Shown piece after piece: positions 24,230 through 43,423 of a stretch of 43,423 nucleotides of DNA. The notes beneath the pieces were generated by a model that was not told the origin of the DNA, made no database searches, and saw only the letters and a program-made list of their open reading frames with translations. The DNA is from an uncultured Selenomonadaceae bacterium (GTDB lineage Bacteria > Bacillota > Negativicutes > Selenomonadales > Selenomonadaceae). A program made the translations under genes and the position numbers. The DNA lies in assembly GCA_905234175.1 (NCBI GenBank), contig CAJOGX010000017.1, forward strand, positions 1 to 43,423, in the 5' to 3' direction. Numbering within the stretch: position 1 is the stretch's first letter; the number at the start of each line of letters is the position of its first letter.

Positions 24230-25024
24230 ATGGACGATAAAGATTGGGAACTTTTTAAGAAGAAGCTGAACGACCGCACGGGAATTGACCTGCAGCTGTA
24301 CAAGGAGCCGCAAATGCGCCGCCGCATTGGCAACCTCGTCACGCGCGCCGAAATGAACTCTTACGTTGCGTACTTCGACAGCGTCGCCAAAGACAAGGAC
24401 AAATTCGCCGAGTTCATCGAGTACCTCACGATTAACGTCTCGGAATTTTTCCGCAACCCCGACAAATTCGACGTGGTTGAAAAAGAAATTATTCCGTACC
24501 TTTTGAAGCGCTCGCCGAAACTCAACATCTGGAGCGCCGGCTGCTCGATTGGCGCCGAACCCTACACGCTGTCAATCATCATGAAGGAACTCACGCCGAA
24601 CGTCCGCCACAGGATTCTGGCAAGCGACCTCGACATTGACATTCTCGCCAAGGCGAAAAAGGGCGTGTACACCGACGCCGAAATTAAGGCAATGCGCCCC
24701 GACCGCAAGCAGAAATATTTTGAGCAGACCAGCGACGGCAAATTCGCAGTCAAGCCCGAAATTAAATCCGTCGTCGAGTTCAAGCGCCACAACCTGCTCA
24801 AGGATAAATTTGAAACCGGCTTTGATTTAATCTTGTGCCGCAACGTCGTCATTTATTTCACCGAAGAGGCGAAGGATCAGCTCTACACGAACTTTTTCAA
24901 TTCGCTCAAGCCTGGCGGGATTCTGTTCGTCGGCGCCACCGAGGCAATTTTGAACTACCGCAAAATGGGCTACACCAGCTACAAGCCGTTTTTCTACCAG
25001 AAGCCCGAAGATTACAAGCAGTAA
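24230..25024 (+). CDS. cheR: Chemotaxis methyltransferase CheR
   Basis: This 264-residue enzyme is predicted to methylate glutamates of chemoreceptors with S-adenosylmethionine. ATG 24230 follows GGGAGGG. The N-terminal helical domain (residues ~1-75, with YKEPQMRRRIGNLV) precedes the SAM-binding domain, with NVSEFFRNPDKFD, WSAGCSIGAEPYTLS, LASDLDIDILAKAKKG, LILCRNVVIYF and LKPGGILFVGATEAI. The family-typical order is complete. No other chemotaxis gene adjoins, so it is a solitary copy with its own promoter and terminator. Confidence 0.94.
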   Translation: MDDKDWELFKKKLNDRTGIDLQLYKEPQMRRRIGNLVTRAEMNSYVAYFDSVAKDKDKFAEFIEYLTINVSEFFRNPDKFDVVEKEIIPYLLKRSPKLNIWSAGCSIGAEPYTLSIIMKELTPNVRHRILASDLDIDILAKAKKGVYTDAEIKAMRPDRKQKYFEQTSDGKFAVKPEIKSVVEFKRHNLLKDKFETGFDLILCRNVVIYFTEEAKDQLYTNFFNSLKPGGILFVGATEAILNYRKMGYTSYKPFFYQKPEDYKQ

Positions 25025-25033
25025 AAAATTCCC

Positions 25034-25066
25034 AACCTCCAATCGCAGTTGCGGTCGGGGGTTTTT
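25034..25066 (+). terminator. Terminator after cheR
   Basis: AACCTCC pairs with GGGGGTT (one T-G pair) around an inner CGCA/TGCG helix, followed by TTTTTAG. It lies 10 bases after the cheR stop. Confidence 0.75.
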
Positions 25067-25069
25067 AGC

Positions 25070-25098
25070 TTGACAAATTCGCGCGGCGATAGTAATAT
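25070..25098 (+). promoter_or_regulatory. Strong promoter of the riboswitch RNA
   Basis: TTGACA (25070-25075), a 17-bp spacer and TAATAT (25093-25098). Transcription should start near 25105, just before the riboswitch. Confidence 0.8.
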
Positions 25099-25120
25099 TG
25101 CAACGTTGAAAACTGAATAT

Positions 25121-25286
25121 TGATTGGGTCAAGTGCCGAAAGGCTTGATAGAGAATCCGGTCGAAGTCCGGAACGGTCACGCCACCGTAGCGGGGAGCGA
25201 CTCTGCAGAAGTTATGTCACTGGGAAACTGGGAAGGCGCAGGGGAGCTTAGATCCGAAGTCGGGAGAACTGCTTGATTGACAATCA
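25121..25286 (+). ncRNA. Cobalamin riboswitch with no downstream gene
   Basis: The closing helix is visible as TGATTG (25121-25126) with CAATCA (25281-25286), plus TCAAG with CTTGA just inside. Conserved cobalamin-aptamer landmarks occur in order: GAGAATCCGGT, AGTCCGGAACGGTC, GCCACCGTA, CGGGGAG, GTCACTGGG, CTGGGAAGGCG and the B12-box segment AAGTCGGGAGAACTGC. Family knowledge says this RNA binds adenosyl- or related cobalamins and turns off transport or biosynthesis genes. Here two terminators follow, and the next gene is glutamine synthetase with its own promoter. The predicted transcript is about 260-300 nt and carries no convincing reading frame. It may act as a B12-dependent small RNA or be a remnant of a lost gene. 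The stretch 25025-25552 holds only these elements. Confidence 0.93.
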
Positions 25287-25341
25287 CCGCTAGACCTGCG
25301 AGCGACAGGGAGGGGATTGCGAGCTTTTACTATGCTCGGAG

Positions 25342-25363
25342 TCCGGCGCTGACCGGATTTTTT
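25342..25363 (+). terminator. Terminator 1 of riboswitch transcript
   Basis: TCCGG/CCGGA with loop CGCTGA is followed by six T. A nearby CGAGC/GCTCG helix (about 25319-25338) could belong to the switching platform. Confidence 0.85.
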
Positions 25364-25374
25364 AGTTGTGCCTT

Positions 25375-25404
25375 CCCGAAGTGCCGCCGCGTTTCGGGTT
25401 TTTT
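25375..25404 (+). terminator. Terminator 2 downstream of riboswitch
   Basis: CCCGAA/TTCGGG with a 12-base loop is followed by six T. A weaker GC-rich hairpin with eight or more T follows at about 25439-25469. Confidence 0.8.
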
Positions 25405-25493
25405 AATTTGATACATTGCTCATACATAAAAAGTTAAGGGCGGCGCAATTTTTGGCGTCGTTTTTTTTATTCTGTATACCTGCGCGGAAACTA

Positions 25494-25522
25494 TCGACAG
25501 CCGCGCCAAATTCTGGTAAATT
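25494..25522 (+). promoter_or_regulatory. Probable promoter for glutamine synthetase
   Basis: TCGACA (25494-25499), a 17-bp spacer and TAAATT (25517-25522), 31 bases before ATG 25553 and after all riboswitch terminators. Confidence 0.55.
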
Positions 25523-25552
25523 AGCGCTGAAATTTTTTAAGGAGCTGATTTT

Positions 25553-27436
25553 ATGGCGGAACTGCTGTACACAATCAAGGCGAACACTCCTAAGGAAGAA
25601 ATTATCCGGCAACTGCGCGACCACCCCGAAATTAAATTTGTCTCGCTGATTGGGATTGACCTTGCGGGCAACGATACCGATGAAAAAATTCCGGTGCGCA
25701 TTTTCATAAAAGACATCGACGATTTTTACGCGGGGCGCGCGGTGCAGACGGACGGCTCAAGCGTCGTGCTGCCTGGTATCGCCACGCTCAACAACGCCAA
25801 AGTTGATATGCCGGTTGACCCGTCGGTAAACTGGTTCGTCGACTACAATTTTGAGAACTACGACCCGTCGACCAATCGCCCCGTTGGAACTTTGCGCATT
25901 CCGAGCTTTCTGATTCACGAGGGCAAGCGCGTCGACTCCCGCGCGATTCTCACGGACACGCTGATTAACGTCAAGAAAGAGCTGGTTGACCTTCTGCACC
26001 TGCACCACGAAATTGACGGGCTGGAAGTCAATGGCAAGGACGTTATCGATATTTCGTTCACGGCGGCGACGGAGCTGGAATTTTGGGTAAAGACGCCGCT
26101 TGAAGAAGCAATCGTCGAGGAAATGAGCGCGTCGCAGGTTATGCAGGAACAGTACTGGCAGCGGACGCATGGCGCGGTTCGGTGCGCGCTGGAGCAGAGT
26201 CTGATTGAGCTGGACAAGTACGGGCTGAAAGTGGAAATGGGGCACAAGGAAGTTGGCGGGCTCAAGGCGCAGATTGACGAGTCGGGGCACTTAACGCACG
26301 TCTGCGAACAGCTGGAAATTGACTGGCGGTTCGATGAGGCGGTACAGGCGGCGGACAACGAAATAATTGTGCGGACGGTCGTCAAGGAAATTTTCCGCGC
26401 GAACGGGCTGGAAGTCAACTTCAAGGCGAAGCCGATGATTGGGCTGGCGGGCAACGGCGAACACACGCACATTGGAATTGCGGCGGTCACTGCAGAGGGC
26501 AGGGTGTACAATCTTTTCGCCGCGCAAAATCCCGCGAAGGATTACATGAGCGCGATTGGCTACGGCGCGCTGATGGGTCTGCTGAAAAATTACGAAGTCA
26601 TTAACCCGTTTGTCAGCTCCACGAACGATTCGCTCAACCGTCTCAAGCCTGGCTTTGAAGCGCCGGTTTGCATTGTGACTTCGCTGGGGCACACGCCGGA
26701 AATTCCCAGCCGCAACCGCACGATTCTCGTCAGCCTGATTCGCGACCTTGAAAATCCAATGGCGACGCGTTTTGAACTTCGCGCGTGCAATCCGTATTCC
26801 AACATTTACCTTGTGCTGGCGGCGTCTTACTCGGCGATTCTCGACGGGATTAAAATGGCGGCGACTCGTACGACGGCGGAACTTCTGGCGGAAATCAGCA
26901 AGGACGCCGGAGCCGACGGTTTCTACCTTGAAAAAGACCGCGCCTACCGCAGCGAGGAAGACGTTTACGAGGCGTTCGACGACGCTGAGCGCAACCGGCT
27001 TTTCGGTACGCCGCCCGCCACTGTCTGGGAAAATATGGAGGCGTTCACGAAGTTCCCCGATAAGACGAAAATTATTTCGAGCGGCGGCGCTTTGAATGAC
27101 CGGCTGATTAAATCTTTCCGCGACGGCGCGCTCCTGCGCTGGAAGATTGAACTGATTTCGCGTATCATTCCCGAAATGCGCGAGATTGTCCGCCGCGCTA
27201 AGCAGATTAAATCCGACTTCGTGACCGACCAGGACGCCTACAGCTGGAACAAAATTTTCATGATTCGCGCGCAGCTGGCGAAAGATTCTATCGACGAAAA
27301 ATCCATGTTCACGCGGCTGACGAACGCGCTCAATTCCGGCGACTACGATACCGCCTCGAAACTGCAGGTTGAAATTTATAACAAAGTCGAGGAACTCAAG
27401 GCGCTGTACGACGCCTACGAGAAAAATATCATCTGA
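25553..27436 (+). CDS. glnA: Glutamine synthetase, long clostridial-type
   Basis: This 627-residue enzyme is predicted to make glutamine from glutamate, ammonia and ATP. ATG 25553 follows AAGGAG. The beta-grasp domain spans ~1-125 (EIKFVSLIGIDLAGNDTDEKIPV, DGSSVVLPGIA). The catalytic domain shows ELEFWVKT, the glutamate/metal-binding VEMGHKEVGG, LAGNGEHTHIGIA and PSRNRTILVSLI. A helical C-terminal extension of ~150 residues makes it longer than the ~445-residue GSI-alpha type; long forms of this type are known in Clostridia and Negativicutes. It lacks the N-terminal features of GSIII (GlnN). Single-gene unit; subtype assignment is less certain than the family. Confidence 0.85.
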   Translation: MAELLYTIKANTPKEEIIRQLRDHPEIKFVSLIGIDLAGNDTDEKIPVRIFIKDIDDFYAGRAVQTDGSSVVLPGIATLNNAKVDMPVDPSVNWFVDYNFENYDPSTNRPVGTLRIPSFLIHEGKRVDSRAILTDTLINVKKELVDLLHLHHEIDGLEVNGKDVIDISFTAATELEFWVKTPLEEAIVEEMSASQVMQEQYWQRTHGAVRCALEQSLIELDKYGLKVEMGHKEVGGLKAQIDESGHLTHVCEQLEIDWRFDEAVQAADNEIIVRTVVKEIFRANGLEVNFKAKPMIGLAGNGEHTHIGIAAVTAEGRVYNLFAAQNPAKDYMSAIGYGALMGLLKNYEVINPFVSSTNDSLNRLKPGFEAPVCIVTSLGHTPEIPSRNRTILVSLIRDLENPMATRFELRACNPYSNIYLVLAASYSAILDGIKMAATRTTAELLAEISKDAGADGFYLEKDRAYRSEEDVYEAFDDAERNRLFGTPPATVWENMEAFTKFPDKTKIISSGGALNDRLIKSFRDGALLRWKIELISRIIPEMREIVRRAKQIKSDFVTDQDAYSWNKIFMIRAQLAKDSIDEKSMFTRLTNALNSGDYDTASKLQVEIYNKVEELKALYDAYEKNII

Positions 27437-42072: not shown

Positions 42073-42159
42073 TGGTGCGGTTGATGAGACTTGAACTCAT
42101 ACGCCCAAACGAGCACTACCCCCTCAAAGTAGCGTGTCTGCCAATTCCACCACAACCGC
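42073..42159 (-). tRNA. tRNA-Leu (anticodon GAG), copy 2
   Basis: Long variable arm, anticodon loop TTGAGGG, acceptor GCGGTTG/CAACCGC, and encoded CCA. It is nearly identical to the neighbouring tRNA-Leu, with paired changes in three helices. Confidence 0.93.
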
Positions 42160-42162
42160 GCG

Positions 42163-42249
42163 TGGTGCGGTCAGTGAGACTTGAACTCACACCCCCAAAC
42201 GAGGACTACCCCCTCAAAGTAGCGTGTCTGCCAATTCCACCATGACCGC
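42163..42249 (-). tRNA. tRNA-Leu (anticodon GAG), copy 1
   Basis: Acceptor GCGGTCA/TGACCGC, loop TTGAGGG, long variable arm with CCTC/GGGG, and encoded CCA. Only three bases separate it from the next copy. Confidence 0.93.
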
Positions 42250-42265
42250 GTGTGTAATTTTCAAA

Positions 42266-42351
42266 TGGTGCGGTAGAGAGGACTTGAACCTCCACGGGGT
42301 TGCCCCCACTAGCGCCTGAAGCTAGCGCGTCTGCCATTCCGCCACTACCGC
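42266..42351 (-). tRNA. tRNA-Leu (anticodon CAG)
   Basis: Acceptor GCGGTAG/CTACCGC, anticodon stem CTAGC/GCTAG with loop TTCAGGC, variable arm GGGGGCAACCCC, and encoded CCA. Confidence 0.93.
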
Positions 42352-42369
42352 GCGGATTATCAAAGTTAG

Positions 42370-42455
42370 TGCCGAGGACCGGGATCGAACCGGTACGGAG
42401 GTCACCCTCCGAGGGATTTTAAGTCCCTTGCGTCTGCCAGTTCCGCCACCCCGGC
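42370..42455 (-). tRNA. tRNA-Leu (anticodon UAA)
   Basis: Acceptor GCCGGGG/CCTCGGC, anticodon stem AGGGA/TCCCT with loop CTTAAAA, and a variable arm with GGAGGGTGACCTCC. CCA is not encoded. Confidence 0.93.
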
Positions 42456-42484
42456 GTTTAAGCTGATAAGCTAAAAGCGGGTGT

Positions 42485-42511
42485 GTAAATCCGACGAGTA
42501 GGAGGATTTAC
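42485..42511 (-). repeat. Inverted repeat between tRNA-Leu(UAA) and tRNA-Gly
   Basis: A perfect 8-bp inverted repeat GTAAATCC/GGATTTAC surrounds 11 bases in an ~80-base spacer, the longest gap in the tRNA array. There is no T-run, so it may be an RNA-processing hairpin rather than a terminator. Confidence 0.6.
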
Positions 42512-42538
42512 TTAATCGAACTCGTGTAAAATTGCCGA

Positions 42539-42610
<72 letters not shown>

Positions 42611-42613
42611 CTC

Positions 42614-42689
42614 TGGAGCTGGCTATAGGACTTGAACCTACAACCTGCTGATTACAAATCAGCTGCTCTGCCAATTGAGCTAAGCCAGC
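42614..42689 (-). tRNA. tRNA-Thr (anticodon UGU)
   Basis: Acceptor GCTGGCT/AGCCAGC, anticodon stem CTGAT/ATCAG region with loop TTTGTAA, T-loop GGTTCAAGTCC, and encoded CCA. Confidence 0.93.
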
Positions 42690-42706
42690 CTGTATAAGAA
42701 AAATAA

Positions 42707-42779
42707 TGCCTCAGCGCGGAATCGAACCACGGACACGGGGATTTTCAGTCCCCTGCTCTACCAACTGAGCTACCGAGGC
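42707..42779 (-). tRNA. tRNA-Phe (anticodon GAA)
   Basis: Acceptor GCCTCGG/CTGAGGC, anticodon stem GGGGA/TCCCC with loop CTGAAAA, and T-loop GGTTCGATTCC. CCA is not encoded. Confidence 0.93.
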
Positions 42780-42784
42780 ATAAG

Positions 42785-42858
42785 CGACCCGAAGGGGACT
42801 TGAACCCCTGACCTCCGCCGTGACAGGGCGGCATTCTAACCAACTAAACTACCGGGCC
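42785..42858 (-). tRNA. tRNA-Asp (anticodon GUC)
   Basis: Acceptor GGCCCGG/TCGGGTC, anticodon stem CCGCC/GGCGG with loop CTGTCAC, T-loop GGTTCAAGTCC, and discriminator G. CCA is not encoded. Confidence 0.93.
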
Positions 42859-42867
42859 GAATTATTT

Positions 42868-42943
42868 TGGTGGACGATGACAGGCTCGAACTGCCGACCT
42901 CCTCGGTGTAAACGAGATGCTCTCCCAGCTGAGCTAATCGTCC
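42868..42943 (-). tRNA. tRNA-Val (anticodon UAC)
   Basis: Acceptor GGACGAT/ATCGTCC, anticodon stem TCTCG/CGAGG with loop TTTACAC, T-loop AGTTCGAGCCT, and encoded CCA. Confidence 0.92.
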
Positions 42944-42947
42944 GAAA

Positions 42948-43023
<76 letters not shown>

Positions 43024-43041
43024 ATGTTATTTTTTCAAAGA

Positions 43042-43117
43042 TGGTGATCCACCCGGGACTTGAACCCGGGACCCTCTGATTAAAAGTCAGATGCTCTACC
43101 GACTGAGCTAGTGAATC
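43042..43117 (-). tRNA. tRNA-Lys (anticodon UUU)
   Basis: Acceptor GATTCAC/GTGGATC, anticodon stem TCTGA/TCAGA with loop CTTTTAA, and encoded CCA. With the neighbour, both lysine codons have a dedicated tRNA. Confidence 0.93.
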
Positions 43118-43123
43118 ACTTAA

Positions 43124-43196
43124 CTGGGGTAGCTGGACTCGAACCAACGATGCGGGAGTCAAAGTCCCGTGCCTTAACCGACTTGGCTATACCCCA
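43124..43196 (-). tRNA. tRNA-Gln (anticodon UUG)
   Basis: Acceptor TGGGGTA/TACCCCA, anticodon stem CGGGA/TCCCG with loop CTTTGAC, and T-loop GGTTCGAGTCC. CCA is not encoded. It complements the CUG tRNA-Gln at 32299. Confidence 0.93.
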
Positions 43197-43233
43197 ATCG
43201 CATCGGGATTCCAGCTCACAAATTTTACAAAAA

Positions 43234-43309
43234 TGGCTCCCCGGACTGGACTCGAACCAGTGACTCCCTGATTAACAGTCAGGTGCTCTACCGACTGAGC
43301 TACCGAGGA
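43234..43309 (-). tRNA. tRNA-Asn (anticodon GUU)
   Basis: Acceptor TCCTCGG/CCGGGGA, anticodon stem CCTGA/TCAGG with loop CTGTTAA, and encoded CCA. First tRNA after the 5S gene. Confidence 0.93.
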
Positions 43310-43316
43310 ACATTTT

Positions 43317-43423
43317 GACCGGCGAATACCTAATCTTCCAAGCCGTCGCCAGCTCAGTACCTTCGGCGTTTGAGTGCTTAACTTCTGTGTTCGGTATGGG
43401 AACAGGTGGTTCCACTCAGCCAT
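43317..43423 (-). rRNA. rrf: 5S rRNA, partial (5' end cut by window edge)
   Basis: Minus-strand sequence contains the conserved 5S blocks GAGTGGAACCACC, CCCATACCGAACACAGAAGTTAAGC and the GCCGAAGGTACTGAGCTGGCGACGGC loop. About ten 5' bases lie beyond the edge. With the tRNAs behind it, it marks the end of an rRNA operon coming from the right. Confidence 0.92.

Follow-up and report, generated by a model that had tools for sequence, protein, structure and literature searches.

Riboswitches are treated as cis-acting elements and, to our knowledge, the few cases known to work in trans do so by protein titration, as an antisense RNA to a neighbouring gene or as a by-product of a cis switch. Activating small RNAs (sRNAs) of the RyhB/DsrA type pair with the strand of a leader that hides the Shine-Dalgarno sequence and so free translation. 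EutX of Enterococcus is a non-coding RNA fed by a stand-alone B12 riboswitch and terminated early in the presence of the vitamin. Rli55 of Listeria has the same layout, again with early termination in the presence of B12 (PMC8079631), and AspocR of Listeria monocytogenes is a further non-coding RNA controlled by a B12 riboswitch, truncated with the vitamin and full-length without it (PMC8079631, PMC9943018). SreA and SreB are S-adenosylmethionine (SAM) riboswitches of Listeria; SreA regulates in cis, and its terminated product represses prfA in trans as well. Here we describe a stand-alone B12 riboswitch in 43,423 nucleotides (nt) of DNA from an uncultured Selenomonadaceae bacterium (contig CAJOGX010000017.1; the whole of this stretch is called the window). 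Positions 25070-25468 very probably hold the gene of a B12-gated trans-acting sRNA that would free the translation of cbiK, the gene of a cobaltochelatase, when B12 is low. An earlier note on this DNA had raised a B12-controlled RNA acting in trans as one of two possibilities, and the comparative evidence now supports it.

The predicted mechanism is as follows. B12 binding would halt transcription at the terminator or terminators just past the aptamer and leave a short aptamer RNA alone. When B12 is scarce, read-through would proceed via an antisense seed to a third terminator and yield a transcript of about 360 nt. The seed and an extension of it would pair with the cbiK leader, including the strand folded onto the Shine-Dalgarno sequence; the ribosome site would thereby be freed, and more cobalt insertion and B12 synthesis may follow. 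The same seed matches cobI/cbiL leaders in many relatives, two Anaerovibrio records included. The arrangement would amount to a B12 riboswitch in two pieces, with the sensor on one RNA and the target leader at a distant locus. Ligand binding, expression, the direction of control and the activation of cbiK are all predictions from sequence.

The closest known systems are AspocR, Rli55/EutX and SreA. As with AspocR, a B12 riboswitch gates a non-coding RNA thought to base-pair (PMC8079631, PMC9943018). AspocR, however, is a 1,400-nt antisense RNA to its neighbour pocR and a repressor, whereas the RNA described here would be about 360 nt long, is directed at unlinked leaders through a seed plus an extension, and is a predicted activator. 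Rli55 and EutX both titrate the ANTAR protein EutV, whereas here the tail carries an antisense seed and, as detailed below, no ANTAR match passed the cut-off in 49 genus genomes. Unlike in the case of SreA, the proposed actor is the product of read-through, and no gene remains in cis. Transcription factors govern sRNAs of the RyhB/DsrA type, whereas here a riboswitch forms the 5' end of the sRNA itself. No riboswitch-gated trans-acting sRNA of this kind was found in the part of the open literature that was searched.

A covariance-model search placed a cobalamin riboswitch (RF00174) at 25114-25290 on the plus strand, as are all parts of the element given here; the match spans positions 1-189 of the 189 of the model and scores 81.0 bits against a gathering score of 31.5, in agreement with the complete aptamer described in the earlier note. 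The promoter claimed there at 25070-25098 is a promoter-like site (TTGACA-17-TAATAT) with 10 of 12 consensus matches. It scores highest within 24400-26000, where five such sites were found and 1.0 was expected in shuffles, and TTGACA-like boxes are similarly placed in many relatives among the matches listed. Directly after the aptamer, at 25293-25318, lies a conserved element, GACCTGCGAGCGACAGGGAGGGGATT, a hairpin that we take to be P13-like and that is common to the stand-alone copies and to the copies found before nikB. DNA similarity between the window and most relatives stops at about 25318, after the aptamer and this element, and spans both riboswitch classes. Further on come a hairpin GCGAGC..GCTCGG and the first terminator GTCCGG..CCGGATTTTTT (25319-25363; hairpin called at 25338-25361), which is presumed to be the B12-controlled one, and a second terminator-like hairpin, CCCGAAGTG..CGTTTCGGG-T6 (25375-25404; called at 25375-25398). 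They are followed by the nearly invariant antisense seed CATTGCTCATACAT at 25414-25427, conserved among relatives and with its complement in cbiK and cobI leaders, and by the pairing extension AGTTAAGGGCGG at 25432-25443. This extension overlaps the stem of the third and final sRNA terminator (25436-25468; called at 25436-25465). Six terminator-like hairpins were found in the scanned stretch when 2.6 were expected in shuffles, and a single one is therefore weak evidence. The two terminators previously reported were both recovered, each weak when taken alone, and the third had gone unlisted; likewise, the element itself proved real, but the interval first assigned to it, 25070-25404, ends before the seed and the extension, its most informative part. 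As had been stated, no gene-like frame was found in the window between the aptamer and the following glutamine synthetase gene, and no B12 gene lies directly 3' of the aptamer.

We searched 60 genomes of the genus Quinella, which are drafts and in several cases incomplete, with the DNA of the element. It was matched in 52 of the 60, nikB-class copies included, which takes it beyond chance. Eighty stretches were fetched, 74 of them with a match (one being the second copy of the window genome), and together with the window they made 75 rows: 18 precede nikB, and among the 57 others five stop at a contig edge within 4 nt, leaving 52. The motif GCTCATAC, contained in CATTGCTCATACAT, or a close variant of it was present in 50 of these 52 copies (48 genomes), 80-396 nt 3' of the end of the matched region, and in 0/18 nikB-class leaders; in a single nikB-class row (G036:C123), a GCTCATAC falls within the start of the nikB coding region, outside the leader. 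The two copies without the motif are a cis riboswitch directly before cbiK (G003:C44) and a weak 59-nt match (G060:C54). A copy in G081, missed by the DNA search, was recovered through the motif (L252), with a riboswitch 212 nt upstream (L397), which brought the number of sRNA-bearing genomes to 49. One other cobalamin riboswitch was found in the window genome (G000), at C35:1067-1245 (L001/L166); it is a canonical cis copy directly 5' of a nickel/cobalt-type ABC permease (Opp2B, over its cut-off).

Exact matches to an 18-nt form of the motif were sought in 84,980 species genomes; this yielded 57 stretches, each of which was then checked for RNA families. The records behind 45 of them bear the labels Selenomonadales, Selenomonadaceae, Veillonellaceae, Quinella, Anaerovibrio, Schwartzia or Megamonas, and many are Quinella loci already counted. 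In 42 of these 45 the motif has a cobalamin riboswitch on its own strand, 91-422 nt upstream (that of L443 is cut by the contig end); in the remaining three, the motif lies beyond the riboswitch found (L441), is at a contig end (L405, G010:C82) or is the cbiK target site of G010 itself (L447). None of the 12 stretches from unrelated taxa has a cobalamin riboswitch upstream of the motif. The seed also stands 3' of aptamers in Anaerovibrio, Schwartzia and Megamonas records; among the carriers with strain titles are A. lipolyticus DSM 3074 (L435), A. slackiae (L400) and Anaerovibrio sp. JC8 and RM50 (L436, L440). One Schwartzia record has two riboswitch-plus-motif copies in a single genome (L433, L454), and the RNA of L433 carries a tandem motif pair of which the first copy is degenerate (GCATGTTCATACATTCC). 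In three Anaerovibrio stretches (L422, L398, L426) the sRNA is followed about 2 kb on by a second cobalamin riboswitch before cbiK.

The complement of the seed led to cbiK. In the window genome, a draft of 1.99 Mb that is 81.7% complete, a single exact 11-nt match to it exists apart from the sRNA, 43 nt 5' of the GTG of a gene encoding CbiK (PF06180, 246 bits). This site is on contig C1 and the sRNA on C17; the two loci are unlinked, and the sRNA does not lie opposite its target gene in the manner of AspocR. A search of both strands of the 60 genus genomes for TGTATGRGCAATG gave 60 matches, against one for the backwards control. Fifteen lie outside sRNAs, namely in six cbiK and four cobI/cbiL leaders, all in sense orientation, at three mutA starts (two of which are the same gene of the window genome at two contig ends) and at two chance-like places (L253, L259). 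Leaders were also surveyed by protein, with a score equal to the pairs minus half per G-U pair and a cut-off of at least 9. By this measure 42 of 52 cbiK leaders carry the seed complement on the sense strand; 100 shuffled seeds on the same leaders gave a mean of 0.8 and a maximum of 13. The control leaders scored 0/30 (glutamine synthetase), 0/18 (nikB) and 0/56 (mutA, upstream of the start). When a cbiK site was defined per genome as a run of at least 12, which left 8 of the 60 genomes not assessable, 40 of 45 sRNA-bearing genomes had it, as did 2 of 7 without a detected sRNA (Fisher p = 0.0017, a value that overstates independence because the genomes are related, as do the other p-values); G009, counted among these seven, shows pieces of the aptamer at contig ends and may bear the sRNA. 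A conserved seed that is complementary to leaders and co-varies with its targets, as expected of a trans-acting base-pairing sRNA, was thus found.

The pairing extends beyond the seed. In the window genome, positions 25416-25443 of the sRNA form 26 base pairs (bp) with the cbiK leader at -43.2 kcal/mol, in two 13-bp blocks with two unpaired bases between them on each side. In the second block, AGTTAAGGGCGG pairs with CCGCCCTTAACT, which in the lone cbiK leader is folded onto the Shine-Dalgarno sequence. Co-evolution and folding were analysed in the 39 genomes that have both parts of the pairing. The extension varies by lineage and the leader likewise: GCTGAGGA occurs in 20 of the 39 sRNAs, opposite TCCTCAGC or TCCTCGGC in 13 of these 20, and other matched extension and leader pairs are GCCGAGGAA / TTCCTCGGC in G020 and CAAATTGCCGG / CCGGCAATTTG in G060. 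The mean extension-leader energy was -18.5 kcal/mol for cognate and -13.2 kcal/mol for non-cognate combinations, and 0 of 20,000 random re-pairings of the 39 genomes reached the cognate value, in a test that kinship among the genomes makes too generous. Full-length RNAduplex predictions for sRNA and leader over-pair and were excluded from the statistics. The mean probability that the Shine-Dalgarno sequence is free was 0.23 for the leaders alone, 0.55 with the paired strand blocked and 0.50 with that strand shuffled; in the window species, blocking raised it from 0.00 to 0.67. This comparative evidence includes natural compensatory changes between two unlinked loci, the sRNA and the cbiK leader. 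The variable part of the sRNA and cbiK leaders also contain inserted short repeats (AATGCGTAATGCGCAATGCG-like and GGGACTAGGGACTAG-like; L103, L111, L260, L261 and others), the functional segments being intact.

Several observations weigh against this reading. Five genomes (G008, G033, G061, G064 and G069) bear the sRNA and have a cbiK leader without the site, the seed flank being altered in G069, while G026 (59% complete) and G075 (92%) have the site and no detected sRNA. Neither extension pairing nor sequestration of the Shine-Dalgarno sequence was seen in the divergent G007, G027, G031 and G070, and blocking has little effect in G006, G032 and G067. Folding of the last 71 nt on their own leaves most of the seed unpaired, but folds of longer stretches pair it partly, and the extension sits in a terminator stem. 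With a relaxed scan, just 26 of 50 loci showed a terminator 3' of the seed. We also considered an antiterminator formed by pairing of the post-aptamer element with the first terminator and do not claim it, as the energies hardly improved on those of shuffles, with 3/57 loci at the 5% level. Finally, the B12-off direction is itself deduced, from cis copies that stand before nikB and cbiK.

Both of these are genes normally repressed by B12. Their cis copies, together with a terminator-like hairpin that precedes the seed in 46 of 50 loci, that of the window included (27% of shuffles; relaxed scan), indicate that the gate is likely a B12-OFF switch. Hairpins of -9 kcal/mol or better occupy the interval between aptamer and seed in 41 of 50 loci, against 12% of shuffles; a stricter first terminator scan scored 24/50 loci before the seed and 13/50 after it. 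An ON switch, with the full RNA made at plentiful B12 and repressing cbiK and cobI, would fit the lack of significant pairing in the antiterminator search and is helped by the indirect basis of the OFF direction. We nevertheless consider it improbable, because the strand bound in the pairing is the one hiding the Shine-Dalgarno sequence, which predicts activation, and because both the terminators before the seed and the cis copies argue for OFF.

Somewhat less probable still is an operator role for the motif, as a DNA site recognised by a B12-responsive transcription factor near the cbiK and cobI promoters and present in reverse at the end of the sRNA gene. The motif does lie near likely promoters in cbiK leaders, but its orientation is strict: sense in the 42 cbiK leaders, reversed at the same cut-off in 0/52 of them and in 0/50 cobI leaders, and antisense in the sRNA, where it sits between terminators rather than at a promoter. 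The match is, moreover, lengthened by lineage-specific, mutually compensating changes, and the extension corresponds to the anti-Shine-Dalgarno strand.

Capture of an ANTAR regulator, as by EutX and Rli55, had been suggested; in this case ANTAR dual hairpins of the B12-controlled transcript would titrate an ANTAR antiterminator. The locus does share the outline of such RNAs, with its promoter-like site, aptamer, terminator and non-coding tail. Yet PF03861 was over its cut-off in 0/49 genus genomes (four had partial matches below it), against 28 of 31 genomes from other families of the class, which served as positive control, and the conserved element of the tail is a linear motif complementary to leaders. 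ANTAR dual hairpins follow a hexaloop rule, and none with hexaloops was recognised by eye in the folded tail, no ANTAR RNA model having been run. We regard this explanation as very improbable for this genus. A link to nitrogen metabolism through glutamine synthetase, likewise raised in the earlier note, found no support: the contexts vary, and a complementary site was present in 0/30 leaders of that gene. The element stands directly before glutamine synthetase in five surveyed genomes (the window and L092-L095) and 1.5-2.3 kb away in L096 and L097; elsewhere in relatives it adjoins many unrelated, often convergent genes. In the window, the next gene is glutamine synthetase (PF00120; 25553-27436, plus strand), outside the sRNA system, and the gene 5' of the riboswitch encodes a CheR methyltransferase. 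The glutamine synthetase is an unusual long form of 627 amino acids that scores below the NCBIfam cut-offs for types I and III. At the far end of the window, 13 tRNA genes are packed closely on the minus strand (42073-43423), adjoining a 5S rRNA at the window end.

The idea that a B12 gene was lost, leaving a relic riboswitch and a functionless RNA, is hardly credible: no gene follows and the neighbours differ between genomes, but 48 genus genomes and several other named genera keep the aptamer and the 14-nt seed although no one gene constantly follows, and gene loss does not explain a motif kept after the aptamer in 50 loci. A relative with a B12 gene right after the same aptamer had been named as the case that would speak for a recent deletion; G003 (L158), with its cis cobalamin riboswitch directly before cbiK, has that form, but no sRNA copy was detected in it. 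Its cis arrangement is plausibly the ancestor of the trans arrangement.

Other genes also match the seed. The seed complement scored at least 9 in 28 of 50 cobI/cbiL leaders. In these leaders, however, sequestration did not exceed that in shuffles and a cognate extension was not seen (p = 0.32). Control of cobI by the anti-Shine-Dalgarno mechanism is not supported by these negative tests, and the claim for cobI is therefore limited to the seed match. The cobI site of the window genome is just 10 nt long with two G-U pairs. In the window genome a one-mismatch match spans the start codon of the small subunit of methylmalonyl-CoA mutase, and a mutA start-codon match was found in 55/57. Pairing there may repress this B12-dependent enzyme; we keep the target tentative because the match recurs in sRNA-less genomes, where it may reflect codon conservation. 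A flavodoxin-like gene (by eye) has a start region matching the seed complement at 10 of 11 positions (G000:C2:40148-40158, L175). In eight non-Quinella genomes, ATGTATGAGCR had 38 matches against six for the backwards control; nine lie in sRNA copies, two of them in the Schwartzia genome (L454, which has its own riboswitch, and L462), and most of the others are in coding sequence. Matches in leaders or at starts include those in cobI/cbiL leaders of A. slackiae and An883 (16 nt), in the leader of a B12-binding radical SAM protein (TIGR03960) of An883, at a gene of the LysR type in the genome of L396 and, in a Megamonas record, at a site 156 nt 5' of mutA. In A. lipolyticus (L475) and JC8 (L451), the start codon of an ethanolamine permease (TIGR00908, over cut-off) lies within an 11-nt match, which makes this gene of a B12-dependent pathway a possible repressed target. 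All these non-Quinella candidates are leads rather than results.

We find quite conceivable, though short of probable, a wider reading in which a family-wide sRNA would open the leaders of cbiK, by displacing the anti-Shine-Dalgarno strand, and of cobI/cbiL, and would close the start codons of B12-dependent functions, namely methylmalonyl-CoA mutase and, in A. lipolyticus and JC8, the ethanolamine permease. Such a vitamin-sparing regulon would resemble the iron-sparing response of RyhB.

The comparative evidence joins sensor, RNA, target site and structural mechanism in one case, and makes it testable that one metabolite sensor is extended to several operons without a transcription factor. Riboswitch surveys that drop copies without a downstream gene may lose such RNAs. 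Quinella and Anaerovibrio are rumen bacteria, and propionate made via B12-dependent methylmalonyl-CoA mutase bears on both methane and feed efficiency; given this route, B12 control in these organisms would carry practical weight.
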